Shown piece by piece: positions 1-23,546 of a DNA stretch of 25,159 nucleotides. Made by a program: the position numbers and the translations under genes. The stretch is taken from positions 1 to 25,159 of the IMG/VR virus record IMGVR_UViG_3300025598_000164; one strand, 5' to 3'. Numbering within the stretch: position 1 is the stretch's first letter; each line of letters starts with the position of its first letter. Source of the DNA: a virus. The notes beneath the pieces are model-generated. The model was given only the letters and a program-made list of their open reading frames with translations, was not told where the DNA came from and ran no database searches.

Positions 1-57
1 GTTATCGGTAACCATAGTGTGTTACGTATCAAAGGGTTTTCATGGGTTATTTTCTAA
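1..57 (+). CDS. C-terminal end of an upstream gene (partial)
   Basis: The first frame is open from the window edge and closes at TAA 55-57, giving the last 18 residues of a protein (VIGNHSVLRIKGFSWVIF). The tail overlaps the next gene's ATG at 42 by 16 bases, a spacing normal for this tightly packed genome. The residue composition looks like real protein, but a second frame is also open here, so the assignment rests on plausibility and overlap style. The product cannot be named; a head or neck structural gene would fit the downstream context. Confidence 0.5.
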   Translation, partial: VIGNHSVLRIKGFSWVIF

Positions 58-1223
58 ATTTCTTAAAAGAAGAAGCTGAAGCTGAGTCTAGTGGCCAGCT
101 TAAGCATATTCATCATGCGGAAGATAGACCATTAATGCATGGTAAAAAAGGTTACGAACATGCAGTCGGTGCTTTAAATCAGGCACACGAACACACCAAA
201 GAAGGTCTACACAATTCCAATCTAACAATGAAATATGATGGTTCACCATCAATTGTTTTTGGCCATCACCCTAAAACTGGTAAGTTTTTTGTTGCTTCAA
301 AGTCAGCATTCAATAAAACTCCAAAAATTAACTACAACCACGCAGACATATTAAAAAATCACGGCCACGCTCCAGGTCTTGTGGATGCTCTACATGCCGG
401 ATTAACACATTTACCTAAAGTTACACCTAAACATGGTGTATATCAAGGTGATGTTATGTTCAAACATGACACCAAACATGAGTCAAAAAAAGGTGTTTCT
501 TTTACCCCAAACACTATCACATATACTGCAAAAGGTGATGGGGGTGATAAAATAAGAAAAGCGAAGTTTGGTGTTGTTGTCCACCAACAGTATCATGGGG
601 ATAATATTGCGACCATGAAAGCTGATCCACATCCAGACCACCATAACTTTAGTTCTCATCCTGACGTTTGGCACAAATCTGCTGAACACGATACGAAACA
701 AGTACATTATTCTCCACACGACCAAGAAGAATTTCATAAACACATGGCAGCAGCCAAAGAAATTCATGATAAAAATAAGAATAAAATGTACAAAGCTACA
801 GAGATGCATCAAGGAGAAGGTGGCCGTTTAGCAACATATATCAATCATACTGTACGTACCGATGAAAATCCTACAGCTGAAGGCTTGAAAAATCATATAC
901 AAGGCATGTATAATAAGGCTTCCGCAAAGTTAAAGACACCAGCTGCACAATCTCGTAAATCGTCTGAAGCTAAAGTCCACATGTCTCACATTGATAAGAA
1001 CAAGGAACAGTATGACAATATATTGAAAATGCATCATCATTTACAGAAAGCTAAAGATACTTTAGTCAATGTTTTAAACCAACATCCAGGTGGTCTAGAA
1101 CATCACATCGATGGCAAAGCAACTGATCCAGAAGGATTCGTTGTGAACCACGAAAATGAACCAACAAAATTAGTTAATCGTAAAGAATTCGCAAAAGCAA
1201 ATTTGTTAAAGGTAAGAAAATGA
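42..1223 (+). CDS. Nucleotidyltransferase/ligase-like phage protein (DUF6267-type)
   Basis: The 393-aa product shows motifs of the covalent nucleotidyltransferase (DNA/RNA ligase) superfamily. These are a KxDG motif at K64-Y-D66-G67, a strand reading VYQGDVMF near 133-140 that sits where motif III is expected, KFGVVV near 175-180 (motif IIIa-like), EGFVV at 364-368 (motif IV-like) and K376-L-V (motif V-like). It resembles the DUF6267 family of T4-like phages, from memory. If active, K64 would be the adenylated lysine. The product is strikingly His-rich, about 43 histidines. The N-terminus MGYFLNFLKE/E fits the leader pattern shared by neighbouring genes and ends in an L-K-E site. AAAGGG at 31-36 is the ribosome site. 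The stop overlaps the next ATG (ATGA at 1220). The reaction and substrate are unknown; RNA or DNA end-joining is an inference. Confidence 0.75.
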   Translation: MGYFLNFLKEEAEAESSGQLKHIHHAEDRPLMHGKKGYEHAVGALNQAHEHTKEGLHNSNLTMKYDGSPSIVFGHHPKTGKFFVASKSAFNKTPKINYNHADILKNHGHAPGLVDALHAGLTHLPKVTPKHGVYQGDVMFKHDTKHESKKGVSFTPNTITYTAKGDGGDKIRKAKFGVVVHQQYHGDNIATMKADPHPDHHNFSSHPDVWHKSAEHDTKQVHYSPHDQEEFHKHMAAAKEIHDKNKNKMYKATEMHQGEGGRLATYINHTVRTDENPTAEGLKNHIQGMYNKASAKLKTPAAQSRKSSEAKVHMSHIDKNKEQYDNILKMHHHLQKAKDTLVNVLNQHPGGLEHHIDGKATDPEGFVVNHENEPTKLVNRKEFAKANLLKVRK

Positions 1224-2515
1224 AAAGGTTTTTAACAGTAATACTTGAATCTGAAGGTAAAATTGCAAAACATACTTTTTTTCATCCAATCAGAGGAATG
1301 TACAAAGTTCACCAAGAAGGTGATATGCATCATGTAAAAAATGATGAAGGTGAAGAAACACACACATTTGTTGGAAAAACTGATAATGAAGTTATCGACA
1401 TACTCAAAACACATCACGATTTAATTTACGCTGGTAAATTACACGAAGGAATGATAACAGAACTTAGAAAACCCAAAGAAGTACTATCCGATGAAGAACA
1501 AGCACGTAAAGCTGCAGCCAAAAAAGCTTCTGCTGGTATCAACATTCATCGTGGAAGTTACAATGAAGCTAGAGTAGCTTATCACTTAAATGGTAATAAA
1601 TGGATTGATGCAGAACACAAACAGATGGCTGACCATCACAAATCTATGTTGGCTGCTCATGATAAGAAGTATGGAACGAATGAAGTTAAGACTCAAGAAG
1701 CAAGAGCACCCGAGCAAGCAAAATCATTCTTAGAACACGCCAAACAAAGAGGCTATGAACAGGTTGAAAAAGTTCATTTGACTGCTAAACCTGGCGATAT
1801 CGAAAGACATACCGGTATTAAAGCTACACAACAAGAGAATCCTTCAGACTTGGTTGCAAAATTTAAAAAGAAACCAGAATCAGCAGCACATCATTATTTT
1901 GGTAATTCTCTAAAATCTTCTGGTGCAAAAGCAATTGGATTTCATAATGGTGGAACAAAAGAGATTGGTAATTTAATTGGACATGATTTGTTGGGTCATG
2001 CTGAAAAACGCCACCAAGAATTTATGAAAAAGAATGGTCTAGGTACAAATAAATCAGCCGCAGCTAAAGCTGTTGCTGGTGAAAAGAAAGATGCTGCTGG
2101 TAATGATAATCCAGAATATCGTAATAATGAACTATACCACAAAGCATCTGAACATGCTCGTAAAGTTAATACTGAAATACGTGATAAGTTGCATGAAGGT
2201 TATTCTCAAATGAGTCAAAAAGATTTGAAAAATCATTTATTAAAAACCTACATAAAAGGTAATACAGCACACGCTTTACCATATGTAAAAACACATGGAA
2301 CTGGTGGTGATGGCAAGAAGCCAGCTTCAGCACACACAGAAGATCCTTCAGATAACGATATGTATCACAAAATTAAAAAGGCCAAAAAAATCGAACTACA
2401 TAAAGCTGGCGAAGGCCAAATTAATGTTCATGCTGATGGACATAGAGTATTCGGTTTACAAGTTAAACATAACAATGGTCCTTTAACAAACATGAAGATT
2501 GGTGCACAACCCTAA
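1220..2515 (+). CDS. Modular His-rich phage protein, possible PD-(D/E)xK-like nuclease
   Basis: This 431-aa protein is not firmly recognised. It starts MKRFLTVILE/S, matching the leader seen in its neighbours, with an I-L-E/S site at residue 10. The segment 106-245 contains E116 in a helix (NEARVAYHL), an NPSDLVAKF strand with D210 and a GNSLKSSG segment with S230-L-K232. The C-terminal end has a matching GLQVKHNNG stretch. This E...D...SLK layout is what some phage-encoded PD-(D/E)xK-fold nucleases show, but the match is weak. Histidine is high (about 36 residues). A low-complexity A/K/E linker lies at 85-105 and another at 275-295. The start overlaps the upstream stop as ATGA, which suggests translational coupling, and the stop abuts the next ATG directly. 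The gene call is secure; the function is tentative. Confidence 0.65.
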   Translation: MKRFLTVILESEGKIAKHTFFHPIRGMYKVHQEGDMHHVKNDEGEETHTFVGKTDNEVIDILKTHHDLIYAGKLHEGMITELRKPKEVLSDEEQARKAAAKKASAGINIHRGSYNEARVAYHLNGNKWIDAEHKQMADHHKSMLAAHDKKYGTNEVKTQEARAPEQAKSFLEHAKQRGYEQVEKVHLTAKPGDIERHTGIKATQQENPSDLVAKFKKKPESAAHHYFGNSLKSSGAKAIGFHNGGTKEIGNLIGHDLLGHAEKRHQEFMKKNGLGTNKSAAAKAVAGEKKDAAGNDNPEYRNNELYHKASEHARKVNTEIRDKLHEGYSQMSQKDLKNHLLKTYIKGNTAHALPYVKTHGTGGDGKKPASAHTEDPSDNDMYHKIKKAKKIELHKAGEGQINVHADGHRVFGLQVKHNNGPLTNMKIGAQP

Positions 2516-4294
2516 ATGAAATCGTTTCTCCAGTTAGTAGTAGAAGAATCAAAGACACACAAGCCGGTGGTGATGGCCTTTGGCCGTATGAATCCACCTA
2601 CTACTGGTCATTTGAAGATGATAGATAAGGTTCGTTCAGAAGCGGAAAAACGTGGTGCTGCACATACAATAGTTGTATCACATTCACAAGATTCCAAGAA
2701 GAATCCATTGTCATCGGAACAGAAAATAAAGCACCTAAAAAGATATTCACCCGGTACTAAGTTTGAAGCTTCATCCAAAGAACATCCAACTATTATGCAT
2801 CATGCAGCTAGATTGAATGCTAAAGGACATGACCATTTGGTAGTCGTAGCGGGTTCAGACCGTGTTAAAGAATATCACGACTTGTTACACAAATATAATG
2901 GAGTGCCTGATAAATCTGGTAAAGCACCTTATAACTACAAAAAAATAGAGGTCGTTTCTGCTGGTCACCGTGATCCTGATGCTGAAGGTTCAGAAGGTAT
3001 GTCCGGTACTAAGATGAGAGAACATGCCAAGAATAAAGATTTTTCATCATTTAGAACTGGTGTACCCTCACACGTTTCAGATGAACATGCAAAAGAATTG
3101 ATGCACGATGTACGTCATGGCATGGGTTTAAATGAAAGTTACAATCGTGGTATTTTCAAAGCGGTATTTGTAACTGGTGGACCTGGTTCTGGTAAGGATA
3201 TCGTAATCCGAGAAGCCATCGCTGAACAAAAAATGGTGGAAATAAATACAGTACAAGCTTTTGATTATTTGGCTGATAAACAGAAATTATCCGAAAAGAC
3301 TCATGATGTACGTAGAGAAGCAATTCGTCATCGTCTACCATTAATTATTAATGGACCAGCAGATGATAGTGAAAGAATATCACACATTAAGGAAGAATTA
3401 GAAGATTTAGGATATCAGACATTAATGATTTTTGTTGATACTGACAATGAGGTTAGTAAAGAGAGAAATGAAAAATTAAAAAGAATGATGAGTGAATCTG
3501 TAAGGCAAGATAAATGGTTACAAGCCCAACAGATTAGAGAATCGTTCTCACAAAATTTTAAAAAGTTTGTGTATTTTGACAATAGTGGTTCTTATGATAC
3601 TATTGAAGAAAGTATTACTGAAACATACCAAAACATTAGCCAATTTTTGGATAGTAAATGGTATAGTGACGTAGCAGGGTCATGGTTACAAAACCGTGAT
3701 AAATTAAGAAGTGAAAATTATCTCTTTAAGGAAGACAAAAATGTTAAAAAAGATTCTAGACATATTCAGGCTAAAACCGTTGCCAAATACAACCCAAGTT
3801 TCAAACTCGCAGCCAGAGGCCCAAGTGACATTACCCCCAGTAACGCAGGAATCGGTAGTGACACAGACCAAATCAGAGGAAACACCAATCCAAGAAAAAA
3901 TCCAAACGGAACAACCTACACCTTTGGTTCAGGAACAGGAGTCTACGCCGAAAGCAGCCCCAGCCTCAAAATCAGCGCCCCGCCAAAAGAGAGCAACTTC
4001 TCCAAGGACAAAGAAAAAGACAAAATAAAGAAGTCTAGATGGATCAATTCACCAGCCAAAGTTATGAAACCGGATGGTGTTGGCCGTGAATTTGAACCAA
4101 GAAGTGGATTGCCTGCAGGCCTTGGAGACCAAACTTATGGTGAGTCCATAGATGACCCAGGTATTGTTGACTCTGGCGTTGGTGGTGTTCTTGGGGGTTC
4201 TGGTAATAAAGAACCTATGAAGACATATAGTGATTTGGATAAGAAGTTAATTGGCTACGAAATCAAAAAGAAAAAGAAAAAAACAGGAGAATAA
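2516..4294 (+). CDS. NMN-adenylyltransferase-like domain fused to P-loop kinase (NadR-like order)
   Basis: The 592-aa protein has three parts. Residues 15-200 form a HIGH-type nucleotidyltransferase: PPTTGH at 27-32 is the T/HxGH site, AGSDR at 112-116 follows, and MSGTKMR at 162-168 is the ISSTxxR-like C-terminal motif. Residues 213-385 form a P-loop kinase with Walker A GGPGSGKD at 221-228 and a strand IFVDTD at 305-310. The order adenylyltransferase then kinase is that of NadR (NMN adenylyltransferase / ribosylnicotinamide kinase), so a role in NAD or nucleotide-cofactor synthesis is plausible. The substrate is not proven; cytidylyltransferase activity is an alternative. Residues about 405-592 are disordered, Pro/Ser/Lys-rich and not catalytic in appearance. 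The start MKSFLQLVVE/E follows the leader pattern of this region. A second frame (3741-4028) is embedded in the tail-coding part, where codon use becomes unusually C-rich. Confidence 0.8.
   Translation: MKSFLQLVVEESKTHKPVVMAFGRMNPPTTGHLKMIDKVRSEAEKRGAAHTIVVSHSQDSKKNPLSSEQKIKHLKRYSPGTKFEASSKEHPTIMHHAARLNAKGHDHLVVVAGSDRVKEYHDLLHKYNGVPDKSGKAPYNYKKIEVVSAGHRDPDAEGSEGMSGTKMREHAKNKDFSSFRTGVPSHVSDEHAKELMHDVRHGMGLNESYNRGIFKAVFVTGGPGSGKDIVIREAIAEQKMVEINTVQAFDYLADKQKLSEKTHDVRREAIRHRLPLIINGPADDSERISHIKEELEDLGYQTLMIFVDTDNEVSKERNEKLKRMMSESVRQDKWLQAQQIRESFSQNFKKFVYFDNSGSYDTIEESITETYQNISQFLDSKWYSDVAGSWLQNRDKLRSENYLFKEDKNVKKDSRHIQAKTVAKYNPSFKLAARGPSDITPSNAGIGSDTDQIRGNTNPRKNPNGTTYTFGSGTGVYAESSPSLKISAPPKESNFSKDKEKDKIKKSRWINSPAKVMKPDGVGREFEPRSGLPAGLGDQTYGESIDDPGIVDSGVGGVLGGSGNKEPMKTYSDLDKKLIGYEIKKKKKKTGE
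3741..4028 (+). CDS. Candidate overprinted gene inside the NadR-like CDS
   Basis: A 95-codon frame lies entirely within the preceding gene, shifted by +1. It begins at ATG 3741 behind AAGGAAG at 3728-3734 with a 6-base gap, a better ribosome site than many accepted genes here. The product would start MLKKILDIFRLKPLP (an amphipathic helix). It continues as a Pro/Gln/Thr/Glu-rich disordered stretch and ends in a basic tail, PRQKRATSPRTKKKTK. The host frame in this interval encodes low-complexity sequence with a sudden rise in C-ending codons, as expected if a second frame constrains it. A longer form from GTG 3711 is possible but has no good ribosome site. No homology is recognised. It may be real or a chance open frame. 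Confidence 0.45.
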   Translation: MLKKILDIFRLKPLPNTTQVSNSQPEAQVTLPPVTQESVVTQTKSEETPIQEKIQTEQPTPLVQEQESTPKAAPASKSAPRQKRATSPRTKKKTK

Positions 4295-4295
4295 T

Positions 4296-5651
4296 ATGTT
4301 CGAAAAAAACAAAGTATCAAAATCTATGATTGACGCCGTTAACATGGTGCTGGAAGATAAAAAAAGAATGATTACTGATGCTGAGGTTGATGAAACAGGT
4401 TTTCACAAAGCTGCACATGCTGCTAAGAGAGCAAACCAATCTCACTTTGAATTTCAGGGTAAAAAATATCCTGTAACTGCAAAGTCACACAAAGAAGCCA
4501 TTGAAATGGAAGAAGGTTGGGACGATATGATGAAGGCTGTCAAAGACAAGGCAGGTCCGCAACCATCTGGTGGTTCCGGTGTTAAGCAAGGTCATCGTTA
4601 TGGTGGCAGCAAACAAAAAGATAAACCAGAACACGATGAACCAAAAGATAAAATGAAGAAAGAAGAAGTATCTTTCAAAGAAAGACTATTGGAGTCGATG
4701 AAACAACTCCAAGAAAAAGAAATGTCTGATAAACAAATGAAAAAACGTGAAGACATTGTTATGTCAATGAAAGACAAAACTAGTTACTTCAAAAAGAAAT
4801 ATGGTAAAGACTGGAAATCGGTTATGTATGCTACTGCTACAAAACAAGCCATGAAAGAAGAATTGGACGAATTAGAAGAAAAAATAGATCCAGCTAAAAA
4901 GACAGTTGATATGTTACGTGGTCGTGTTGCTATGCCAAAAGGTTTTGATGATGGTAACGAACATAAGAGTACTAAAGTTAAATTAAGTGCAGAAGAAGCT
5001 GATTGTGTAACACCATCACAAGCAAAGAAAATTGCCGACAAAGAAGCTAAAAAAGAAGTAAGTCACCACAATACTAGTATGCACAAAGGTCAAAAGAACA
5101 CAGTTAAGATGGAATCTGTTGATGATTTGGACGAAGGTATGATGGACACCATGAAAAAAGTTGGTAGTAAAGTTCTATCAAAATTAGGTCATGGTGACGA
5201 TGAAGCTATGCGTAAAAACCTTCAAAAGAAAATGGGTATGCCACAAACTGGTAAAAAACCAACTAAAGAAGAAGTTGAGTTGACTGAAGGTCATCATATG
5301 CATACTCACACAGTACACTTTTCTTGTCCTATGACGGGTGAGTGGAAAGGTAAAATGATTTACAATGCTGACCATGACAAAGAAGCTATTGAGATGGCAA
5401 AAGATATGGCTAAGAAACAAGACTTAAAAGTTATGAAAGTTTCCAAAAACAATGTCATTATGTCGGATAAGACTATGGGTGAAGAAACTATATTTGAAGC
5501 TTTCAAAGGACCAGAGTCTGGTTCAGGCACAGGTGATAATCCTTTTGTTACTAACGAAAGTAAGCCTTTAGTTAATGCCAAAGCAATTGCTCATAAAGCT
5601 TTACAGAGAGTTAAAAATGAGATGATGGGTAAAGCACCAGGAAATAATTAA
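4296..5651 (+). CDS. Modular prohead/virion-associated protein with L-x-E linkers
   Basis: The start ATG 4296 is chosen over the in-frame TTG at 4251 because AGGAG at 4285-4289 sits six bases before it and the earlier codons overlap the upstream gene. The 451-aa product is Lys/Glu/Met-rich and modular. A helix at 145-185 carries a YGKDWKSVMYATATKQA segment that I recognise from T4-like aquatic phage proteins. A small His-rich beta module at 332-390 (HTHTVHFSCPMTGEW) is set off by linkers. Candidate prohead-protease sites are LLE/S at 131-133, LDE/G at 278-280, LTE/G at 329-331 and IFE/A at 399-401. SFKERLLES at 126-134 looks like an internal copy of the leader. Likely a head-core or internal protein; no enzymatic motif is seen. 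Confidence 0.7.
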   Translation: MFEKNKVSKSMIDAVNMVLEDKKRMITDAEVDETGFHKAAHAAKRANQSHFEFQGKKYPVTAKSHKEAIEMEEGWDDMMKAVKDKAGPQPSGGSGVKQGHRYGGSKQKDKPEHDEPKDKMKKEEVSFKERLLESMKQLQEKEMSDKQMKKREDIVMSMKDKTSYFKKKYGKDWKSVMYATATKQAMKEELDELEEKIDPAKKTVDMLRGRVAMPKGFDDGNEHKSTKVKLSAEEADCVTPSQAKKIADKEAKKEVSHHNTSMHKGQKNTVKMESVDDLDEGMMDTMKKVGSKVLSKLGHGDDEAMRKNLQKKMGMPQTGKKPTKEEVELTEGHHMHTHTVHFSCPMTGEWKGKMIYNADHDKEAIEMAKDMAKKQDLKVMKVSKNNVIMSDKTMGEETIFEAFKGPESGSGTGDNPFVTNESKPLVNAKAIAHKALQRVKNEMMGKAPGNN

Positions 5652-5652
5652 A

Positions 5653-6774
5653 ATGAATAAAGTAGAAAAGTTAAAGGCCATCGTTAAGAATAAGACTGTA
5701 AGACCAACTTTTGGTACCAATCCTTCTGATCCATGGTCTGCAAAAGCAAACATTGCTGAGTCTCCAGGTTTAGATGCATACCTCAAATCAAGAGGTATCA
5801 ATCCAGAATTTGCTTCTAAAGATGTGAAGATTGCACATTCAAAATCTAATGCTTTCTTGCAATGGCAACGTGCTCATATGAGAGAAGATGTTGCTGAGCC
5901 TTTGGATGAAGTATCTGTAAATACTTTGGCTAGTTATAAAAAGAAAGCTGGCCAAGATGTCAATGCACGTGCTTTAAAAGTTGCTATGCAGAAGGATGAT
6001 CCTTTACGTCATCCTTCAACACCAGACAGTCGTGAAAAAGATGCAAAAAAGAGAGCTTCTAGAATCACTTCTATTGTTAAAGCTGGAGAAAAACTAAAAT
6101 CAAAAGGTTACCAAGAACCAAAGCCTGCACCAGATACAGCTGATAGGGGTTATGGTAAAGGTCGTTACATGGGTGATTCTGTTGAACTAGAAGGTGATAC
6201 TTTAGATGAAGTTTCTTCAGAATTACTTGGTCGTTACAAAGAAAAAGCCAAGAAGTCCGCTGATTCTTTGACTTCTGCTGGTCAACACAAGAAAGCTACA
6301 GACCGTCATATGAACGTAATGAAGGCTACTGGTAAACAGATGTCAAAAACAATATCAAATCTGAAAAAATCATTACGTGTTGAAGATAAGTATGAAGATC
6401 CAAAAGCTGCAACACAAACACCTGATGTTATGGCTGAAAAGAAAAAATCTATGTCAAAATCTGCTGAACTCATCAAATCTATCTACAAAAATAAGAAGAT
6501 GATGAAAGAAGATTTGTATGACCATGAAAAAGCAGATAAATCAGTAGCTACATATGGCAAAAAGCCTAAATTTGATGCGGCTGATAAGAAAGATTCTCAA
6601 GGCGAAAACAAACCTAAAGCCGCAGCGGTTCTATCAGGCGGTACAACATTGACTGGTCAAAGTAGAGATACTATTGAGATTGACCCTATGATGAGAGTAC
6701 GTCCAGGTCAACCTGATCCTACAAAGGATAAAGACAAGGACAAGAAAAAAGAAGAAGATAAATCCAAAAAATAA
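5653..6774 (+). CDS. Modular Lys-rich prohead/virion-associated protein with duplicated module
   Basis: The 373-aa product starts one base after the previous stop, with AGGAAA at about 5639-5644 upstream. It contains two copies of a module. LDEVSVNTLASYKKKAG starts at residue 84 and LDEVSSELLGRYKEKAK at residue 184, exactly 100 residues apart; the second is followed by AGQHKKATDRHMNVMKATGKQ. Similar 'LxRYKEKA...KRxxGxxxA' segments occur in other T4-like phage proteins, from memory. Each copy is preceded by an L-D-E site, and an I-A-E/S site lies at 34-36. The last 20 residues are almost all Lys/Asp/Glu, likely disordered. It is probably a head-internal or core protein made of short helical units. 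A late promoter follows directly, so this gene may close the upstream operon. Confidence 0.7.
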   Translation: MNKVEKLKAIVKNKTVRPTFGTNPSDPWSAKANIAESPGLDAYLKSRGINPEFASKDVKIAHSKSNAFLQWQRAHMREDVAEPLDEVSVNTLASYKKKAGQDVNARALKVAMQKDDPLRHPSTPDSREKDAKKRASRITSIVKAGEKLKSKGYQEPKPAPDTADRGYGKGRYMGDSVELEGDTLDEVSSELLGRYKEKAKKSADSLTSAGQHKKATDRHMNVMKATGKQMSKTISNLKKSLRVEDKYEDPKAATQTPDVMAEKKKSMSKSAELIKSIYKNKKMMKEDLYDHEKADKSVATYGKKPKFDAADKKDSQGENKPKAAAVLSGGTTLTGQSRDTIEIDPMMRVRPGQPDPTKDKDKDKKKEEDKSKK

Positions 6775-6779
6775 TAACA

Positions 6780-6787
6780 GATAAATA
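6780..6787 (+). promoter_or_regulatory. Late promoter, gATAAATA
   Basis: The octamer matches the T4 late promoter TATAAATA at seven of eight positions; the first base is G, and T4-like cyanophages are reported to tolerate NATAAATA. It lies between two genes, on the right strand, 31 bases before the ATG of the Ig-like virion gene, which leaves room for a short leader carrying AAAGGAGA. Confidence 0.6.
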
Positions 6788-6818
6788 TAGAATAACCCAC
6801 GGTTAAAAGGAGAATAAC

Positions 6819-7514
6819 ATGTCATCTTGGGGCAATAACGACAACGCAGCTAACGCACCACATTGGGCCGTTAACTCTACAATTACTTATGGTGCTGGCG
6901 TAGCAGCATCTGCCGCCAGAGCAACAGCGGCAAACGTAGCTTTTCTTTATGGAAATACTACACCTAATGTGTATATTCAAGACGCAACGGTTGGTCTTTA
7001 TGCTGTAGATAACCAAGAAATTGGTGCAGCTGAAGCCATAGCTCATCCAACACATTCAGGATGGATACTAAGAACAACTGGTTCTGGTGGCCGTGCGGGT
7101 CGAGTTACACATGAAGTTTTGGTTGCTTTGGCTAATGTGATTGGTGACGGTGATGGTCAATTCTACGCCAACGTTGCAATTGATGTAACAACTTTCACAA
7201 CATCTCAAACTGTTACACACAGTTCATCTAATGCCAACTCTGCTATCTTTACTGTATCTCCAATTTTGACTGGTAATACATCTGCAGCATTGACTTATCA
7301 ATGGCAAGTGAATAGTAATACAGGTGGATTAGGTTGGACAAACGTTGCAAACAATACTCCAACTGCAACTGGTTATTTGGGTGGTACAACAAATACATTG
7401 TCTGTTTACCCATATAATGCTACAGCAAACGCTTATGTATTCCGTGTAAAAGTAACCGCAGCTGATGAAGGTGTTTCAGCAACATCTGCAAACGCTACAA
7501 TTACTATTCTGTAA
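6819..7514 (+). CDS. Virion protein with C-terminal Ig-like domain
   Basis: The 231-aa product is Ala/Thr/Asn/Gly-rich and short on lysine, unlike its neighbours, and looks like an abundant beta-structured virion protein. Residues 1-120 begin MSSWGNND, a start I know from small structural proteins of T4-like aquatic phages. Residues about 125-231 form an Ig-like domain with the usual YQWQVNS strand, a GWTNVANNTPTATGY stretch, and a terminal YVFRVKVTAADEGVSATSANATITI strand pair. Such domains often decorate capsids, tails or fibres and bind surfaces weakly. A strong AAAGGAGA ribosome site precedes the ATG, a late promoter lies at 6780 and a terminator follows at 7522, so it forms its own late transcription unit. 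The exact virion position is unknown. Confidence 0.75.
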   Translation: MSSWGNNDNAANAPHWAVNSTITYGAGVAASAARATAANVAFLYGNTTPNVYIQDATVGLYAVDNQEIGAAEAIAHPTHSGWILRTTGSGGRAGRVTHEVLVALANVIGDGDGQFYANVAIDVTTFTTSQTVTHSSSNANSAIFTVSPILTGNTSAALTYQWQVNSNTGGLGWTNVANNTPTATGYLGGTTNTLSVYPYNATANAYVFRVKVTAADEGVSATSANATITIL

Positions 7515-7521
7515 TATAATT

Positions 7522-7551
7522 AAAAGGGGTGGCGAGAGTCACCTCTTTTTT
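7522..7551 (+). terminator. Intrinsic terminator after the Ig-like gene
   Basis: GGGGTG at 7526-7531 pairs with CACCTC at 7540-7545 (one G-T pair) around an 8-base loop. The stem is extended by AAAA/TTTT and runs into a T6 tract. It sits 8 bases after the stop of the Ig-like gene and immediately before the next gene. Confidence 0.8.
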
Positions 7552-7556
7552 GTTAA

Positions 7557-7943
7557 ATGTTTGATAATTTAAATGATGACAATTTTATGTTATATGCTGT
7601 GAAATGCTATAATTCACCGCATTGTATCATGTCAGAATTTGAAGGAGATATCAAAAGAACAAAGTATTTGAAAAGATTGTTCCGTAGATACAAGACTACA
7701 AAAGTACTTAAAGAGAGATTGATATTAAACCATATAATTTTATTGAACAATGTTTTTGGCTTAGAAGCAAACGCAAGAGTATTGTTCTATAAAATAGATG
7801 AACGTGATTATGATATATTAAAAACATTTTTATGTTACTTGAACATTATGCCAAAAATGATTTATGGAATAAACGGTAAAAATATTAATGGTTATGATAT
7901 ACCATTAGATTTAAATGTTGCAGAGGTGTTAAAAAATCTATGA
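7557..7943 (+). CDS. Conserved T4-like phage protein (DUF7207-like)
   Basis: The 128-aa, mainly helical protein resembles a family common in T4-like aquatic phages. Its recognisable core is MLYAVKCYNSPHC, then a KRTKYLKRLFRRYK basic helix, LKERLILNHIILLNNVFG, and a RVLFYKIDERDYDILKTFL segment. The family name DUF7207 is from memory. The function is unknown. No clear ribosome site stands before ATG 7557, which begins 5 bases after a terminator T-tract, so its message must come from readthrough or an unseen promoter. An internal ATG at 7587 is a possible alternative start. The stop overlaps the next ATG (7940). Confidence 0.7.
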   Translation: MFDNLNDDNFMLYAVKCYNSPHCIMSEFEGDIKRTKYLKRLFRRYKTTKVLKERLILNHIILLNNVFGLEANARVLFYKIDERDYDILKTFLCYLNIMPKMIYGINGKNINGYDIPLDLNVAEVLKNL

Positions 7944-9082
7944 AAAGCTTTAAACAATACTTAGACGAAGTAAAAAAACCAACAGGTGATTTAAAGAGCG
8001 CTTGTTGGACAGGTTATACTGCTGTTGGTATGAAAATGAAAAATGGTAGAAAAGTACCTAATTGTGTACCTGAAGAAGTTGAACTAGATGAGATGGATAA
8101 ATCTCAAACTCCTCCAGGTCGTGCCGCTGATTATCCTCTTGGTGTCAAAGGCACTACCGTAAAACCAACTACTAAAAAGAAAGTTCTTAAAGATTTAACT
8201 AAATTATTAAATAAGTCATTTGATAAAGTTAAAGAAGAAGTCGAATTGGATGAAGCCACAAAAATAATTACTGATGGAGGAGTGATGAATGTACATCATA
8301 ATGGCCATCATATTGGTAACATCATGAAATCTCCTTCCAATAAAAAAACACCATATAAAGCATATTCCAAACATTGGGATATGAAAAAGTTATATAAATC
8401 TAAAAAAGACGCCACTGATTGGTTGGTACAGACACATAATACAGCTATGAAAGAAGAAGTTGAAATGGAAGCTTACCATGATCCTTGGAAAGACAAATAT
8501 TTTGGTCCAGGAGAAGTAGTCAAACAAAAATATAGAGTTAAGACAGATGACAAAACATATAATGTTAGAGCTGATACTGAAAAACACGCACACGAATTGA
8601 TAACTAAACATGCTCCTGACTCAACAATTATTTCTATTCAACATAAAGGTTCCGCAAGATGGTCGGAACAAGTTGAAGCAGTTGAATTTTATGAAGAATA
8701 TAATCCGGAAGAATTGTTTGATATTTTAGAAGAAGTTATTAATGATATTGCAGAAGTAAATAGAATTGATCCTGAACAAATTTGGGAAGACTTTGAAGAT
8801 GTTTCAGATGAAGAATTGTTTGAAACTGCTGCATGGCGTAGAAAAGAAGGCAAGAGTCCTACTGGTGGTTTAAATGCAAAAGGTATTGCATCTTATCGTA
8901 GAGAAAACCCAGGTTCTAAATTGAAGAAAGCTGTAACAGGTAAAGTAAAACCTGGAAGTAAAGCAGCAAAGCGTAGAAAATCATTTTGTGCTCGTATGTC
9001 TGGCATGAAAGGTCCTATGAAAAAACCAAATGGTGAACCATCCAGAAAAGCATTAGCTTTGAGAAAGTGGAAATGCAGATAA
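7940..9082 (+). CDS. Modular prohead-targeted protein with DUF6321-like C-terminus
   Basis: This 380-aa protein gives the clearest view of the region's architecture. It starts with the leader MKSFKQYLDE/V. A small Cys/Gly unit at 17-43 (SACWTGYTAVGMKMKNGRKV) follows. EEVELDE occurs at 45-51 and again at 99-105, with a variant EEVEMEA at 172-178. Between these lie a His-rich module (106-170) and a KYRVKTDDKTYNVRAD beta module (197-240). An acidic helix covers 245-295. The basic C-terminus 297-380 (AAWRRKEGKSPTGGLNAKG..., FCARMSGMKG) resembles DUF6321 of phages. The acidic linkers end in L-D-E or M-E, matching the T4 gp21 prohead-protease pattern. It is likely packaged in the head and cut into separate modules. 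No catalytic motif is evident; the basic tail could bind DNA. Confidence 0.72.
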   Translation: MKSFKQYLDEVKKPTGDLKSACWTGYTAVGMKMKNGRKVPNCVPEEVELDEMDKSQTPPGRAADYPLGVKGTTVKPTTKKKVLKDLTKLLNKSFDKVKEEVELDEATKIITDGGVMNVHHNGHHIGNIMKSPSNKKTPYKAYSKHWDMKKLYKSKKDATDWLVQTHNTAMKEEVEMEAYHDPWKDKYFGPGEVVKQKYRVKTDDKTYNVRADTEKHAHELITKHAPDSTIISIQHKGSARWSEQVEAVEFYEEYNPEELFDILEEVINDIAEVNRIDPEQIWEDFEDVSDEELFETAAWRRKEGKSPTGGLNAKGIASYRRENPGSKLKKAVTGKVKPGSKAAKRRKSFCARMSGMKGPMKKPNGEPSRKALALRKWKCR

Positions 9083-9285
9083 AATCATTTAAACAATACG
9101 TAGATGAAATGGCCGGTGGTGGCGGTGGAGGTGGTGCAGTTGCTGCAGGTCCAACTAATGTAGTAGGTGGTGGTGCAATCGCTGGTACTGGAGGCAAAGG
9201 TGGTGAACCTGGTGTTGATATGAGAAAACGTAAAAAACACAATCCAATTATGATGTCTATGGGAAGTAGGAAAGCACCAAAGTGA
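9073..9285 (+). CDS. Gly-rich small protein with shared leader
   Basis: ATG 9073 is preferred to the GTG at 9067. It overlaps the preceding stop (TAA 9080-9082). The 70-aa product opens MQIKSFKQYVDE/M, nearly the same leader as the preceding gene, which makes it a likely duplicate of that 5' end. It then runs into a Gly/Ala-rich stretch (seven glycines in a row at residues 15-21) and ends in a basic RKRKKHNP segment followed by MMSMGSRKAPK. It has no fold that I recognise. Like the larger leader-bearing proteins it may be a head-internal peptide. The start is not certain. Confidence 0.6.
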   Translation: MQIKSFKQYVDEMAGGGGGGGAVAAGPTNVVGGGAIAGTGGKGGEPGVDMRKRKKHNPIMMSMGSRKAPK

Positions 9286-14997: not shown

Positions 14998-16794
14998 ATG
15001 ACCGAAAAATACTTAGGTATAAAGATAGATTTAGAGAGAGATAAACTTTTTGACGAATTAGGAATAAAACGATTACAAGAATCGTACATGAAAGAAGATG
15101 AAACAAGCCCACAACATAGATTCGCTTTCGTATCAAAAGCTTTTGGTACAAATCTTGCACATTCCCAAAGGTTGTATGATTATTCTTCTCGTCATTGGCT
15201 TAGCTATTCTACACCTATTCTTAGCTTTGGTCGCAGCAAGCGTGGTCTACCCATATCTTGCTTTCTTAACTATATTGAAGATACTGCGGAGGGTCTAGTT
15301 GATAACCTATCAGAAACAAATTGGCTTTCTATGCTCGGGGGTGGTGTCGGTATTGGGTTTGGCATTCGCTCTGCTGACGATAAGTCTACTGGCATTATGC
15401 CTCACCTTAAAATATATGATGCTTCTTCTTTGGCTTATCGTCAAGGTCGTACTCGCCGTGGTTCTTATGCCGCTTATCTCGATATTAGCCATCCCGATAT
15501 TATTCCTTTCCTTGAGATGCGAAAACCAACAGGAGACCCCAACGTCCGATGCCTAAACTTACATCATGGTATTAATATCACCGATGACTTTATGAGTATC
15601 ATTGAAAAGTGTATGTTGGATCCAGAAGCAGATGATTCTTGGCAATTGATTGATCCACATTCAAATGAAGTGAGAGAAACAGTATCGGCTAAGATGTTGT
15701 GGCAAATGATTCTTGAGCTTCGTATGCATACTGGTGAACCATACATTCACTTTATTGATACAAGCAATAGAGCAATGCCACAACACTTGAAAGACTTAGG
15801 TTTGAAGATTAATCAATCAAATCTTTGTTCTGAAATTATTTTACCTACTAATGAAGAACGCACAGCTGTATGTTGTTTATCTTCTTTGAACTTGGAGACT
15901 TATGATGATTGGAAAGATAACAAACTTTTTCTTAGGGACGTCGCTGAGATGTTGGACAACGTTCTCCAGTATTTCATTGACAATGCTCCTGATAGCATAT
16001 CTAGAGCAAGATATAGCGCCAGTCGTGAGCGCAGTATTGGTATTGGTGCACTTGGATTTCATGCTTATCTCCAACGAAATAAAGTGGCCTTTGAAGGAGT
16101 AATGGCAAAAGTTGCCAACAATAAAATATTTAAACATATTAAAGAAGGTTTAGATGATGCAAACAAACAACTCGGAGCCGAGCGTGGGGAAGCTCCTGAT
16201 GCAATGGGTACTGGGAACCGCTTTTCTCATGTTATGGCCATTGCTCCTAATGCAAGTTCTTCCATTATCATGGGTAATACTAGCCCTAGCATTGAACCTT
16301 ATAGGGCAAATGCTTACCGTCAAGATACTCTATCAGGCTCTTACTTAAATAAGAATCGTTGGTTGGATGAATTGATTATTGCAGCATCAAATGAAAAACC
16401 ACAAGGTTGGTATGACGATGTTTGGTCTTCCATTATTGCAAACGATGGTTCTGTTCAACATTTAGATTGGATGTCAGAACACGATAAAGATGTATTTAAA
16501 ACATCAATGGAGATTGACCAACGTTGGGTGATTGACTTGGCTGCAGATAGACAAAACTATATAGACCAAGCACAGTCATTGAATCTATTTTTTAGACCTG
16601 ATGCTAATATTAAATATCTACATGCCATTCATTTCATGGCATGGAAAAAAGGATTAAAGACCTTATATTATTGCCGTTCTGAGAAGATTGGTAAAGCTGA
16701 TAAGGTTTCAAAGAAAATTGAAAGACAAGTTATTAAAGAACTAGATATGGCCGAAATTGCCCAAGGCAATGACTGTATCGCATGTGAGGGTTAA
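14998..16794 (+). CDS. nrdA: Ribonucleotide reductase class I large subunit
   Basis: The 598-aa NrdA reduces ribonucleotides together with NrdB. Visible active-site residues are C88 (SCF), the N275-x-C277-x-E279 triad (NQSNLCSEI), C293 in CCLSSLNL, the radical-transfer pair Y557-Y558 (LYYCRS) and the C-terminal redox pair C593-x2-C596. The N-terminal ATP-cone of E. coli NrdA (761 aa) is absent: the protein starts directly at the substrate domain. Absence of the cone normally means no dATP shut-off, which would suit a phage. AAGG lies upstream of ATG. Codon use shifts locally around 15169-15560. Confidence 0.96.
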   Translation: MTEKYLGIKIDLERDKLFDELGIKRLQESYMKEDETSPQHRFAFVSKAFGTNLAHSQRLYDYSSRHWLSYSTPILSFGRSKRGLPISCFLNYIEDTAEGLVDNLSETNWLSMLGGGVGIGFGIRSADDKSTGIMPHLKIYDASSLAYRQGRTRRGSYAAYLDISHPDIIPFLEMRKPTGDPNVRCLNLHHGINITDDFMSIIEKCMLDPEADDSWQLIDPHSNEVRETVSAKMLWQMILELRMHTGEPYIHFIDTSNRAMPQHLKDLGLKINQSNLCSEIILPTNEERTAVCCLSSLNLETYDDWKDNKLFLRDVAEMLDNVLQYFIDNAPDSISRARYSASRERSIGIGALGFHAYLQRNKVAFEGVMAKVANNKIFKHIKEGLDDANKQLGAERGEAPDAMGTGNRFSHVMAIAPNASSSIIMGNTSPSIEPYRANAYRQDTLSGSYLNKNRWLDELIIAASNEKPQGWYDDVWSSIIANDGSVQHLDWMSEHDKDVFKTSMEIDQRWVIDLAADRQNYIDQAQSLNLFFRPDANIKYLHAIHFMAWKKGLKTLYYCRSEKIGKADKVSKKIERQVIKELDMAEIAQGNDCIACEG

Positions 16795-16795
16795 A

Positions 16796-17041
16796 ATGAA
16801 AAGACTATTGAGATTTACAGCGTCATGGTGTCAGCCATGTAAAGTGTTAGAAGCAAATTTGGAAAGAGCAGATTTAAATATGCCTATCGAAGTTATTGAT
16901 ATCGACAAACATGAAGATATTGCTAATCAGTATGGCATTAGGTCTGTTCCTACTTTAGTCATGTTAGACGAGAATATTGAAGTGAAACGTAATGTTGGAG
17001 TCAAAACACCAAAACTTTTAAAAGAGTGGGCAGAAGCATGA
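16796..17041 (+). CDS. Thioredoxin-like protein
   Basis: The 81-aa product is a short thioredoxin fold with W-C-Q-P-C at residues 11-15 and the cis-proline segment SVPTL. It probably reduces NrdA's C-terminal cysteines, because it lies between nrdA and nrdB, one base after the nrdA stop and overlapping nrdB as ATGA. GAGGG is its ribosome site. Without the in-frame extension from 16757 it matches the compact length of phage NrdC-like reductants. Confidence 0.88.
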   Translation: MKRLLRFTASWCQPCKVLEANLERADLNMPIEVIDIDKHEDIANQYGIRSVPTLVMLDENIEVKRNVGVKTPKLLKEWAEA

Positions 17042-18021
17042 TTAAAAAAACAGATACGAGGATTACAGATGAAAGAGCATATTTCAAGCCGTTCAACTAT
17101 GCTTGGGCATACGATGCATGGCTTAAGCACGAGCAGTCTCATTGGATGCACACAGAGGTTCCTATGCATGAGGATGTTAAAGATTGGAAAAAGAAACTTA
17201 CTGAAGAAGAAAAGAAGTTCCTCACACACATCTTTAGATTCTTTACTCAAGGAGACATTGATGTTGCCGGTGGGTACGTTAGAAATTATTTACCCTATTT
17301 CCCTCAACCTGAGATAAGAATGATGCTCATGGGCTTTGCTGCTCGTGAAGCATTACACATTGCTGCTTATTCACATTTGATTGAAACACTTGGTTTGCCA
17401 GAAACCACTTATAATGATTTCATGGAATATAAAGAGATGGTTGAGAAACATGATTATGTACTTGATATTTCTAGACAAAATACAACAAGAGAAAACACAG
17501 CAACACACATTGCAGTATTCTCTGCTTTTACTGAAGGTATGCAGTTGTTCTCATCATTCATTATGTTGTTGAATTTCCCAAGACATGGTAAAATGAAAGG
17601 CATGGGTCAAATCGTTACTTGGTCTATTGTTGATGAGACACAACATGCTGAGAATATGATTAAATTGTTTAGGACATATATTGAAGAAAATCGTGAGATA
17701 TGGACTGATGAATTAAAGAGTCGCATATATACGATTGCAGAGAAGATGGTTGAACTTGAAGATAAGTTTATTGACTTAGCATTTCAAATGGGACCAATGG
17801 AAGATTTAACACCGGAAGATGTTAAAAAGTATATTCGTTATATTGCTGACAGACGTTTGATTTCTTTAGGACTCAAAGGTGTGTTTAGAGTAAAAAGGAA
17901 TCCTTTGCCTTGGGTAGAGGAAATGATTAACGCACCGACACACACAAATTTCTTTGAGAACCGTGCTACAGATTATGCAAAAGGAGCATTATCAGGCAAT
18001 TGGAGTGATGTTTGGGCTTAA
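17038..18021 (+). CDS. nrdB: Ribonucleotide reductase class I small subunit
   Basis: The 327-aa NrdB carries the di-metal ligands D73, E104, H107, E166, E200 and H203. Tyr111 lies in the E-x2-H-x3-Y arrangement of E. coli R2, where this tyrosine is the radical (Y122). It therefore looks like a tyrosyl-radical type, not a tyrosine-lacking variant. The start ATG 17038 overlaps the thioredoxin stop, so the three proteins are coupled. An in-frame GTG at 17026 adds four residues and is less likely. Confidence 0.96.
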   Translation: MIKKTDTRITDERAYFKPFNYAWAYDAWLKHEQSHWMHTEVPMHEDVKDWKKKLTEEEKKFLTHIFRFFTQGDIDVAGGYVRNYLPYFPQPEIRMMLMGFAAREALHIAAYSHLIETLGLPETTYNDFMEYKEMVEKHDYVLDISRQNTTRENTATHIAVFSAFTEGMQLFSSFIMLLNFPRHGKMKGMGQIVTWSIVDETQHAENMIKLFRTYIEENREIWTDELKSRIYTIAEKMVELEDKFIDLAFQMGPMEDLTPEDVKKYIRYIADRRLISLGLKGVFRVKRNPLPWVEEMINAPTHTNFFENRATDYAKGALSGNWSDVWA

Positions 18022-21434: not shown

Positions 21435-23546
21435 ATGATTGCAAGTGAGTCTTTATCAGTTTCCAAGTCTTTGTTAGCTAAATTGATGGCTACAGAGAAT
21501 TTAACAGTTGAAGAAAAGAATGTTAGAACAGCTTCATTCGATGTTAAGAATCGTGTATTGACAATTCCAATTCTAGACCAATCATTATCACCTAGTTTAT
21601 ATGATTTATTTACAGGCCATGAAGTAGGTCATGCTTTATGGACAACTGAAGAAGGTATTAGAAAGGCAATGGCCTTAGAAATTCCAACTCCAATTCTCAA
21701 TTTGGTTGAAGACTCACGTATTGAACGTAAAATCAAAAACAAATATCCAGGTCTTAGAAAATCTTTTGTACAAGCTTATTCTGAGTTGGTTGACCGTGAC
21801 TTCTTTGGCACCAAAGATGTTGACCTAAACGAATTGAATTTTATTGACCGCACCAACATGCATTGTAAAGGTGGTGCTGGCCTTAACATCAAATTCAATG
21901 ATATAGAAAAACAATTAGTTAAAGAAATTGAATCCACCGAAACTTTTGATGAAGTGATTCAAGTGTCTTTGCGTGTTTATGACTATTGTAAAGAATTACA
22001 AGATAAACAAGAAGAACTCAAAAAGATGTTGGGTGCCGATGAAGGTGAAAATGATAGTGATGATTATGAATATAGTGATGAATCGGAAGATCCACAATAT
22101 GATGAAGAAGAATCTTCTGATGTAGAAGAACAAAACGATAAACCAGGTGATTCTGGTACTGAAGAAGATTCTGGTTCTGGTGGCGGCGATTCAACAAATG
22201 CTTCCGGAAACAAAAGCTCTGGCCAACAATTCCGTTCTTTCACAGACGAAGCCTATAAACGCAATGAAGAAAAATTGTTTAAAGGTGGCAATACAAATTA
22301 CACCTATGTCAACATTCCAAAAGTTGATACTAAACAGGCAATTTTAGATTGCAAAGACTTTGTTAGAAGGTATAGGAAAGAAACTGCCGATTCTATTAAT
22401 CCTTCCTACTATGAACCAGATTATGCTCAATTCTTAAAGATGAAAAAAGATATATCAAAGGTTGTATCTTACCTTGTCAAAGAATTTGAAATGCGTAAGA
22501 ATGCTGAACAGCTTAAACGAGCCACGGTTGCAAAGACTGGTGAATTGAATATGTCTAAGATTTATTCTTATAAATTTAGTGAAGATATATTCAAGAAAAT
22601 CTCCGTTGTTCCTGGTGGCAAGTCACACGGTCTGGTCATGTTCTTAGACTGGTCAGGTTCAATGTCCAATCACCTTTCAAATACAGTAAAACAATTACTC
22701 TCATTGGTTATGTTTTGCAAGAAAGTTAATATTCCTTATGAAGTATATGCTTTCACAAACAACGACTATTTGGAGTTGTATCAACCAGAAAAGAAAGCTG
22801 GCGACCTTAGATTGGGTAGATTTAGATTGATGAATATTCTATCAAGTAGAATGACAGCATCCGAATTTACCTATTCTGCTTCTGTATTAACAACTGTAGG
22901 CAGTAGAGAAGGTCGTAGATGTTTAGATTTCTTTTGTCTTTCTGGAACTCCTCTGAATGAAACTGTAATTGCTGCATTAGAAATTGTTCCTGAATTTCAA
23001 AAGAAAAACAAACTTCAAATTGTCAACACAATTTTCCTAACTGATGGTGATGGCCATCCATTGAGAAACTTCTATGAAAACGTTTCTGGTGAAATTGTAG
23101 AAAATTCTTTTGATTACAGAGGCACTATCATTTTGCGTGATCCAGAAACAAAGACACAAGAAATGTGTGATGCGACCAAATGGGGTAGTACTGACATGAC
23201 CAAGTCTCTCATTAAAATGTTGAGAAGTAAAACTGGTTCACATGTAATTGGATTTTATATTCTTTTCTCTAGAGAATTTCATAGTGCAGGAAAGTTCTTT
23301 TCTGGCGGCGTTGACATGTTTATAAAGAAAGAAGAATTCAAGAAAAACAAATTCTGTATCGTAAAGAATTCTGGTTACGATGAATACTATTTGTTAAAAT
23401 CCGAACTGCGAGATGATGATGAACCTGAATTCACAGTTAGAGAGAATGCCACAACAAAAGGTCTAGTAAATGCGTTTACTAAGTATACCAATGGTCGTGT
23501 GACCAACAGAGTAGTATTGAATAGATTTATCGGTTTAATTTCTTAA
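21435..23546 (+). CDS. HExxH metalloprotease-like protein with VWA domain (CobT-like)
   Basis: The 703-aa product has an N-terminal zinc-peptidase-like site H62-E63-V-G-H66 followed by N-L-V-E92-D93-S-R-I-E97, which could supply the third ligand. An acidic low-complexity linker covers 200-250. A von Willebrand A domain then has the MIDAS D405-W-S407-G-S409 and a later TDGDGHP. This plan resembles the CobT/CoxE-type VWA proteins of T4-like aquatic phages, which elsewhere pair with a MoxR/CobS-type AAA+ ATPase. Such an ATPase is not in this window. It could be a chaperone or protease acting on a host target. The gene has its own promoter. Confidence 0.8.
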   Translation: MIASESLSVSKSLLAKLMATENLTVEEKNVRTASFDVKNRVLTIPILDQSLSPSLYDLFTGHEVGHALWTTEEGIRKAMALEIPTPILNLVEDSRIERKIKNKYPGLRKSFVQAYSELVDRDFFGTKDVDLNELNFIDRTNMHCKGGAGLNIKFNDIEKQLVKEIESTETFDEVIQVSLRVYDYCKELQDKQEELKKMLGADEGENDSDDYEYSDESEDPQYDEEESSDVEEQNDKPGDSGTEEDSGSGGGDSTNASGNKSSGQQFRSFTDEAYKRNEEKLFKGGNTNYTYVNIPKVDTKQAILDCKDFVRRYRKETADSINPSYYEPDYAQFLKMKKDISKVVSYLVKEFEMRKNAEQLKRATVAKTGELNMSKIYSYKFSEDIFKKISVVPGGKSHGLVMFLDWSGSMSNHLSNTVKQLLSLVMFCKKVNIPYEVYAFTNNDYLELYQPEKKAGDLRLGRFRLMNILSSRMTASEFTYSASVLTTVGSREGRRCLDFFCLSGTPLNETVIAALEIVPEFQKKNKLQIVNTIFLTDGDGHPLRNFYENVSGEIVENSFDYRGTIILRDPETKTQEMCDATKWGSTDMTKSLIKMLRSKTGSHVIGFYILFSREFHSAGKFFSGGVDMFIKKEEFKKNKFCIVKNSGYDEYYLLKSELRDDDEPEFTVRENATTKGLVNAFTKYTNGRVTNRVVLNRFIGLIS

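Follow-up and report, generated by a model that had tools for sequence, protein, structure and literature searches.

A late operon of a T4-like phage encodes proteins with T4-type capsid targeting sequences, a putative head-loaded payload

Introduction

Why should proteins with unrelated bodies, encoded side by side in one gene row, begin with nearly the same ten residues? This question is raised by IMG/VR virus record IMGVR_UViG_3300025598_000164 (positions 1 to 25,159; the window, by which we mean this whole stretch of 25,159 nucleotides), whose first genes, named here by the position of their first nucleotide, encode among others a ligase-like DUF6267 protein (42), a restriction-endonuclease-like protein (1220), a NadR-like protein (2516) and a DUF6321 protein (7940). 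An earlier note, made from the sequence alone, had described similar leader peptides on six of these genes and had likened them to the N-terminal tags that send the internal proteins (IPs) of phage T4 into the prohead, where the gp21 protease removes them. According to a review of T4 mutagenesis, targeting by the IPIII tag is directed by residues 4 and 7 and its processing by residues 8 and 10, the cleavage motif of gp21 being L/I-X-E with the cut behind E (PMC9026906).

The answer that we favor, with a probability of roughly 0.86, is a T4-type operon of head-loaded, gp21-processed payload proteins; we infer packaging, cutting, injection and function for the window phage. Targeting is strongly supported and processing is well supported by the motif, on sequence grounds that comprise the tag and how widely it occurs, the agreement of its motif with that of T4, gp21 and gp23 in relatives with L-x-E at the gp23 processing position, and a late promoter. 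Others have detected homologues of the 2516 protein in virions.

The window, which contains 39 genes, is a 25 kb piece of a T4-like freshwater phage genome. Its proteins are about 30-44% identical to those of the Kyanoviridae (cyanophages, HTVC008M, Melnitz) and 53-70% identical to those of many IMG/VR contigs, while two fragments match it at 100%. Six long relatives (G001-G006, 95-168 kb) were available, and four of these (G001, G002, G003, G005) were read in detail. All four possess a gene row orthologous to the window operon, with one to five clear tags each in the genes as called.

Results

Five window proteins share an N-terminal tag

All leader peptides quoted in the earlier note are in frame: MGYFLNFLKE (42), MKRFLTVILE (1220), MKSFLQLVVE (2516), MKSFKQYLDE (7940) and MQIKSFKQYVDE (9073), the last with two additional residues ahead of KSF. 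The motif M-x(2-4)-[FYW]-x-x-[FYLVIM]-[LIVM]-x-E fits exactly these five of the 39 window genes, far above the expectation from shuffling residues 2-21 of the same genes (mean 0.07 matches, maximum 2 in 5,000 rounds). The sixth gene that had been counted as tagged, 4296, lies outside this motif. It has a conserved N-terminus of its own, MFxKxxVSxSMIDAVxxVLxE, and [LIV]xE is found in residues 13-24 of 45 of its 47 orthologues with an MF-like start, versus 430 of 3,166 (13.6%) other proteins; it is a conserved tag of a different type.

When the phage's other proteins were searched with leader profiles, as the earlier note had proposed, the same five genes led the 39 window genes. This holds for each of three profiles trained, with no motif filter, on the leaders of a single family (DUF6267, 2516 or 9073 orthologues). 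The gap is wide for the DUF6267-trained profile (3.2 for the lowest of the five tagged genes, -10.0 for the next window gene), smaller for the 2516-trained profile, and narrow for the 9073-trained profile (3.2 versus 1.6).

The tag matches the T4 capsid targeting sequence

The conserved tag columns (4, 7, 8 and 10) are those set by T4 mutagenesis. At the positions of the T4 capsid targeting sequence (CTS), the leaders of 42 (F4, F7, L8, E10) and 7940 (F4, Y7, L8, E10) fit in full; 1220 has V7/I8, 2516 has L7/V8, and 9073 fits at an offset of two, with V at the L/I position. Our main tag profile was trained without T4 on sequences picked by motif, single-family training being added as a control. 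Among 264 T4 proteins it placed gp61.1, IPIII, IPII and IPI at ranks 1-4 and gp24 at rank 8.

The earlier note had advised looking for gp21 and its sites in the same genome, and had regarded a differing cleavage pattern in the major capsid protein as an argument against the idea. The window contains neither gp21 (no match to PF03420) nor gp23, the missing gp21 match being explained by the window being a 25 kb fragment; all six long relatives encode both gp21 (PF03420) and gp23 (PF07068). Each of the nine gp23s examined has L-x-E at the boundary corresponding to T4 gp23 E65: where T4 has LTE65, G001, G002, G003 and G005 have LNE, HTVC008M has LGE and Melnitz LSE, and the gp23s of S-CREM2 and S-SM1 likewise carry L-x-E. 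A T4-type late promoter of the TATAAATA type lies no more than 100 nucleotides before the first gene in 100 of 106 loci; that of the window phage itself, TATAAATA, is found at L007:5254, just outside the window, and the start codon is at L007:5304. Head targeting in the T4 manner followed by gp21 cutting, as first proposed, is thus supported by the motif columns, by the blind recovery of the T4 IPs and by gp21 and gp23 in the relatives; it is also backed by the late promoter, by a tagged gene between gp20 and gp21 and by the published detection of homologues in virions (see below).

Might the tag merely dock the proteins in the head, with gp21 leaving them uncut and [LIV]-x-E belonging to the docking segment? 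Targeting and processing can be separated in T4: residues 4 and 7 contribute most to targeting, and a tag with Asp at position 10 still targets (PMC9026906). In the DUF6267 family, however, E10, the T4 processing position, is as conserved as F4 (M1, F4 and E10 are invariant in 16 orthologues), and the gp23s of the relatives show the same L-x-E pattern. We consider docking without cutting improbable.

Tagged proteins in the head gene region and in cyanophage virions

An additional small tagged gene lies between gp20 and gp21 in two of the long relatives (MKSFKEFISE in G005, MKTLKEFLSE in G002), and the gene at this position in G003 has a degenerate tag. This location links the tag with head assembly.

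Homologues of the 2516 protein have been reported from purified virions. The cytidylyltransferase GC190 was detected by mass spectrometry in S-SM1 virions (PMC3037559) and the NMNAT/cytidylyltransferase homologue ORF154 in those of S-CREM2 (PMC10665884, Table 3); a further homologue was found in S-SCSM1 virions (PMC9602691), where those of S-CBWM1 and S-SZBM1 are cited as well. In the four cyanophage records from which N-termini were read, the homologues start with a 2516-type tag: MKKFSAFLNE|A in S-SM1, MKNFSSFLTE|A in S-CREM2, MKRYTNFLSE|A in S-CREM1 and MKKFSAFLTE|A in S-SSM5. Of the 36 genes scored in its neighbourhood, ORF154 has the top tag score. These T4-GC190 proteins belong to the enzyme family of 2516 and, in S-SM1 and S-SSM5, adjoin the DUF6267 gene (GC71); unlike them, 2516 also carries a fused P-loop kinase domain. 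In the parts consulted, their authors propose virion carriage and name no targeting signal. DUF6267 had also been considered as the cyanophage virion protein T4-GC15, an identification that we dropped since database records give GC71.

These data also bear on the possibility that the tag serves another purpose, such as binding a shared partner in the cell or translation control, and that the proteins act outside the head. Most of these families are annotated as hypothetical, and the authors of the cyanophage studies allow that the NMNAT-like virion proteins may be contamination. Yet the profile that finds the window tags finds the T4 internal proteins blind, relatives have a tagged protein between gp20 and gp21, and homologues are reported from the virions of several cyanophages; a role outside the head is highly improbable.

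The tag is carried by unrelated proteins

In a set of 3,214 non-identical proteins from the relatives, 217 have the strict motif (E at position 10), compared with 1.4 upon shuffling (maximum 5 in 200 rounds); at internal Met positions, used as a control, it occurs at 15 of 15,820. By these sequence counts, chance is excluded as the source of the shared tag. Single-linkage clustering sorts the bodies that follow the tag into 13 clusters. We count at least ten unrelated bodies, because one small cluster (G003_140950) may be due to chance and the largest merges the 2516, 7940 and 9073 families, which Pfam separates. The earlier note's view that one tag is shared by unrelated domains therefore stands. 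That the tags are alike through duplication from one tagged ancestor, instead of being portable, is hardly credible: single-linkage clustering does unite the three families just named, but the Pfam bodies are unrelated (DUF6267, cytidylyltransferase plus P-loop, DUF6321), as are other tagged bodies, for example a Melnitz RimK-like ATP-grasp protein.

Variants of the leader were noticed in two other settings. In Melnitz-2 (L004), two proteins (82-1131 and 4010-5227) have tag-like N-termini; that of the RimK-like protein reads MTQKFSQFITEE, and an HhaI-like DNA methylase has a weaker one, MKYFRYTLDEM. The DUF6321 proteins of L110, L114, L115, L116, L122, L124 and L143 begin with shorter leaders (for example MRASEFITEA, MKSSEFITES, MKITEIITE), and some of them sit on long contigs.

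Internal L-x-E sites mark modules in some of the proteins

The earlier note had also pointed to internal [LI]-x-E sites at which the proteins might be cut. Relative to shuffled sequences, [LI]xE is 2.5-fold in the 7940 family, 1.9-fold in 2516, 1.6-fold in 4296 and 1.3-fold in 5653, compared with 1.1-fold in 1,000 other proteins, the orthologues in this test being interdependent so that its z-scores are inflated. We dropped the notion of an enrichment in all families, as [LI]xE is depleted in DUF6267 (0.30) and at expectation in the 1220 family (0.98). A small repeat module, [VL]S-x-x-L-x-x-Y-x-x-KA, starts immediately after an [LI]xE in 14 of its 20 copies, against a background of 1.1%; the 5653 protein contains two such modules, both after LDE (LDE|VSVNTLASYKKKA and LDE|VSSELLGRYKEKA). 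Internal cutting is plausible for 4296, 5653 and 7940 and implausible for DUF6267 and 1220. The pattern fits polyproteins that would be cut into modules, whereas the DUF6267 protein, probably an enzyme, would lose its tag and otherwise remain intact.

The 9073 protein and T4 gp61.1 resemble the N-arm of gp23

Behind its tag, the small 9073 protein carries a stretch, AVAAGPTNVVGGGAI, that resembles the N-terminal arm of gp23 following LNE| (IADAGPTNATGSGV). Scored against gp23 arms, the 9073 protein reaches z values of 3.1-5.6 for four relatives and 0 for T4; for its family as a whole, the values are 2.7 to 7.6 against the arms of the freshwater relatives (all pairs) and -0.7 to 0 against the T4 arm.

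T4 gp61.1 (gene 61.1; NC_000866 18966-19130) is built in the same way, with a tag, a stretch GGNPENISIGTTSGAVVNKGP that resembles the start of mature T4 gp23, AEIGGDHGYNATNIAAGQTSGAVTQIGP, and a lysine-rich basic tail. The T4 gp23 arm, searched against the T4 proteome, finds gp61.1 first (score 82; next 46), and gp61.1 matches the T4 arm alone (z 11.5; other arms at most 1.3). The 9073 protein and gp61.1 thus differ in that each matches the gp23 of its own lineage only. The T4 record gives gp61.1 no assigned function, and a paper found under its name (PMC3468402) has no word on virions; we predict from its sequence that it is an internal head protein. It is conserved across many records of T4-type phages, where it is sometimes labelled major capsid protein (1,441 records at an E limit of 10, a count that may include gp23 matches).

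Two cyanophage proteins, S-CREM2 ORF160 (L211:13343-14236) and S-SM1 GC426 (L212:7806-8354), lack the capsid tag, and close to its N-terminus each nearly duplicates the gp23 N-arm of its own phage. Against cyanophage gp23 arms these proteins score z 9.7 to 14.9, and the S-CREM2 arm, searched against the surrounding region, finds ORF160 first (95; next 29). PMC10665884 lists ORF160 as a virion protein. Within single freshwater genomes the match to the gp23 arm is weaker, and in neither G001 nor G003 does the 9073 orthologue stand out as the best; the case for mimicry therefore rests on T4, S-CREM2 and the lineage-matched scores.

We tentatively propose, at somewhat less than even odds, that these proteins form a new class of internal head protein made of a copy of the phage's own gp23 N-arm and a basic stretch, tagged in 9073 and gp61.1 and untagged in ORF160 and GC426. 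The mimic would bind the inner capsid surface at the site of the gp23 arm and link the shell to DNA or to other payload, and the operon would be an exchangeable injection kit in which gp21 dices polyproteins into small basic modules.

Genes and leader of the operon

The features of the operon are collected in Table 1.

Table 1. Features annotated in the window operon.
Feature	Position in window	Strand	Basis or remark
RNA hairpin GTAAC-CATAGTGT-GTTAC in the operon 5' leader	8..25	+	Between late promoter and start codon (L007:5254-5303)
DUF6267 protein with T4-type tag	42..1223 (tag codons 42-71)	+	Pfam PF19782, E=7.6e-94
Restriction-endonuclease-like protein with tag	1220..2515 (tag codons 1220-1249)	+	Conserved residues, fold match
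NadR-like protein with tag	2516..4294 (tag codons 2516-2545)	+	Pfam PF01467, PF06414
Modular Lys/Glu-rich protein; other tag ending VLE (residues 18-20), internal L-x-E	4296..5651	+	Family comparison
Modular protein without N-terminal tag	5653..6774	+	Two repeat modules right after LDE
PHROG head-protein-family match, within the same gene row	6819..7514	+	phrog_613 'head protein', E=4.1e-11
Untagged DUF7207 protein; its gene overlaps the tagged gene that follows	7557..7943	+	Pfam PF23837, E=2.8e-36
DUF6321 protein with tag and several internal L-x-E	7940..9082 (tag codons 7940-7969)	+	Pfam PF19846, E=9.2e-23
Small protein: tag, gp23 N-arm-like stretch, basic tail	9073..9285 (tag codons 9073-9108; arm-like stretch ~9142-9180)	+	

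The Pfam assignments of the 42 and 7940 proteins are well above the curated cut-offs (315.6 bits versus 27 for DUF6267; 81.1 versus 28.5 for DUF6321). The 42 protein has a KYDG motif (K64-Y-D66-G67; ligase motif I is KxDG) of which K64, D66 and G67 are invariant. In its structural model residues 1-21 have a pLDDT (predicted local distance difference test) of about 32 and the body is well folded; such low confidence is as expected of a detachable tag. The 1220 family has invariant E116, D210 and S230-x-K232, to be compared with D...(E/S/N)xK of PD-(D/E)XK nucleases; a Pfam scan of the 1220 protein gave no match, and the best fold match of its model (pLDDT 71.9) is MspI (E=4.6e-3, probability 0.82). 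The 2516 protein combines a cytidylyltransferase/NMNAT domain with a P-loop kinase domain (phrog_3041 cytidyltransferase, E=9.6e-62). We treat the ligase/nucleotidyltransferase-like body of 42, the nuclease-like character of 1220 and the NMNAT/kinase assignment of 2516 as leads, not as proof. Sequence searches of solved structures with these three proteins returned nothing useful, a PADLOC search gave no convincing defence match, a literature search on DUF6267 found no paper, and the ART domain of T4 Alt had no Pfam match in the ten window proteins scanned.

The slot between the DUF6267 and 2516 genes, held in the window by 1220, is optional; it is empty in 33 of 61 loci and, where filled, mostly holds one of two unrelated families, tagged or untagged. 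Untagged 1220-family members of L091, L088, L101 and L013 have another N-terminus in common (e.g., MISIQTKMWLDRAGLLNE), which may be a third type of tag.

The hairpin ahead of the operon has a five-pair stem and the loop CWWAGTGT and is present upstream of the orthologues in 64 of 71 distinct regions; every long relative read has one copy ahead of its DUF6267 gene. Across 20 sampled sequences, 97% of the cells pair and four of the five pairs change on both sides (GCAAC/GTTGC, GTAGC/GCTAC, GCAAT/ATTGC, GTAAC/GTTAC); sliding the partner strand destroys this signal. An Rfam search with the hairpin matched no family.

Elsewhere in the window, inspection by eye suggested that a large 703-residue protein (21435-23546) may correspond to the cyanophage gene at the CobT/peptidase position, and that a thioredoxin-like gene lies between putative ribonucleotide reductase subunit genes at 14998-18021.

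Discussion

In the mechanism that we envisage, the late operon of the window would make the internal protein payload of a T4-like head. The first ten residues of five of its products would be a T4-type CTS, whose residues 4 and 7 would dock each tagged protein onto the core of the assembling prohead, and during head maturation gp21 would cut behind the [LIV]-x-E that ends at residue 10 (residue 12 for 9073). The freed proteins would then remain with the DNA and be injected together with it. This payload would comprise the ligase-like DUF6267 protein, the optional restriction-endonuclease-like protein, the NadR-like NMNAT/kinase, the DUF6321 protein and the small 9073 protein, which seems to imitate the mature gp23 N-arm and may lie against the inside of the shell; 4296, 5653 and 7940 look like polyproteins in which small basic modules are punctuated by gp21 sites. 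Early counter-defence and host takeover, for instance by restoring NAD+, are the likely uses.

Several observations weigh against this head-loaded payload. No protein of the window phage or of the freshwater group has so far been seen in a virion; S-CREM2 ORF154 is known from three peptides, and PMC10665884 cautions that proteins may be carried over in CsCl purification. As annotated, the DUF6267 homologue of S-SM1 is untagged (score -25.5), HTVC008M has one clear match only, MKSFKDFQ, which lacks E10, and several 1220-family members are untagged. When the profile is trained on one family at a time, the T4 IPs keep high ranks, though by small margins. T4 Alt, a head-loaded protein that the earlier note had cited as an example of this tag, does not have the motif (rank 42 of 264). 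The best fold matches of the 42 protein, RNA ligases, are weak (E=0.19).

The tag shares with the CTS of T4 IPI, IPII and IPIII its length, its position, residues 4, 7, 8 and 10 and its use on unrelated proteins, and relatives of the window phage have the gp21 gene and the late promoter. Whereas the T4 IPs are small and basic, the proteins described here are large and enzyme-like or consist of polyprotein-like modules, they are encoded by one conserved operon in Kyanoviridae-like phages, and their processing is deduced from the motif. Phage P1 DarB and the polyvalent proteins offer a parallel mechanism without kinship: there, too, an N-terminal signal sends antirestriction proteins into the head, and multi-domain effectors are delivered with the DNA (PMC9024508; PMC5512222), but the signal, the protease and the proteins are others.

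If our interpretation is correct, a ten-residue motif would predict which phage proteins enter the cell with the DNA, in a widespread group of lake and sea phages for which virion proteomics is rarely possible. It would offer a mechanism for the repeated and so far unexplained finding of NMNAT-like enzymes in cyanophage virions, predict a role for gp61.1 in phage T4 itself, and nominate ligase-like, nuclease-like and NAD-related proteins as tools that these phages may use against host defence in the first minutes of infection.

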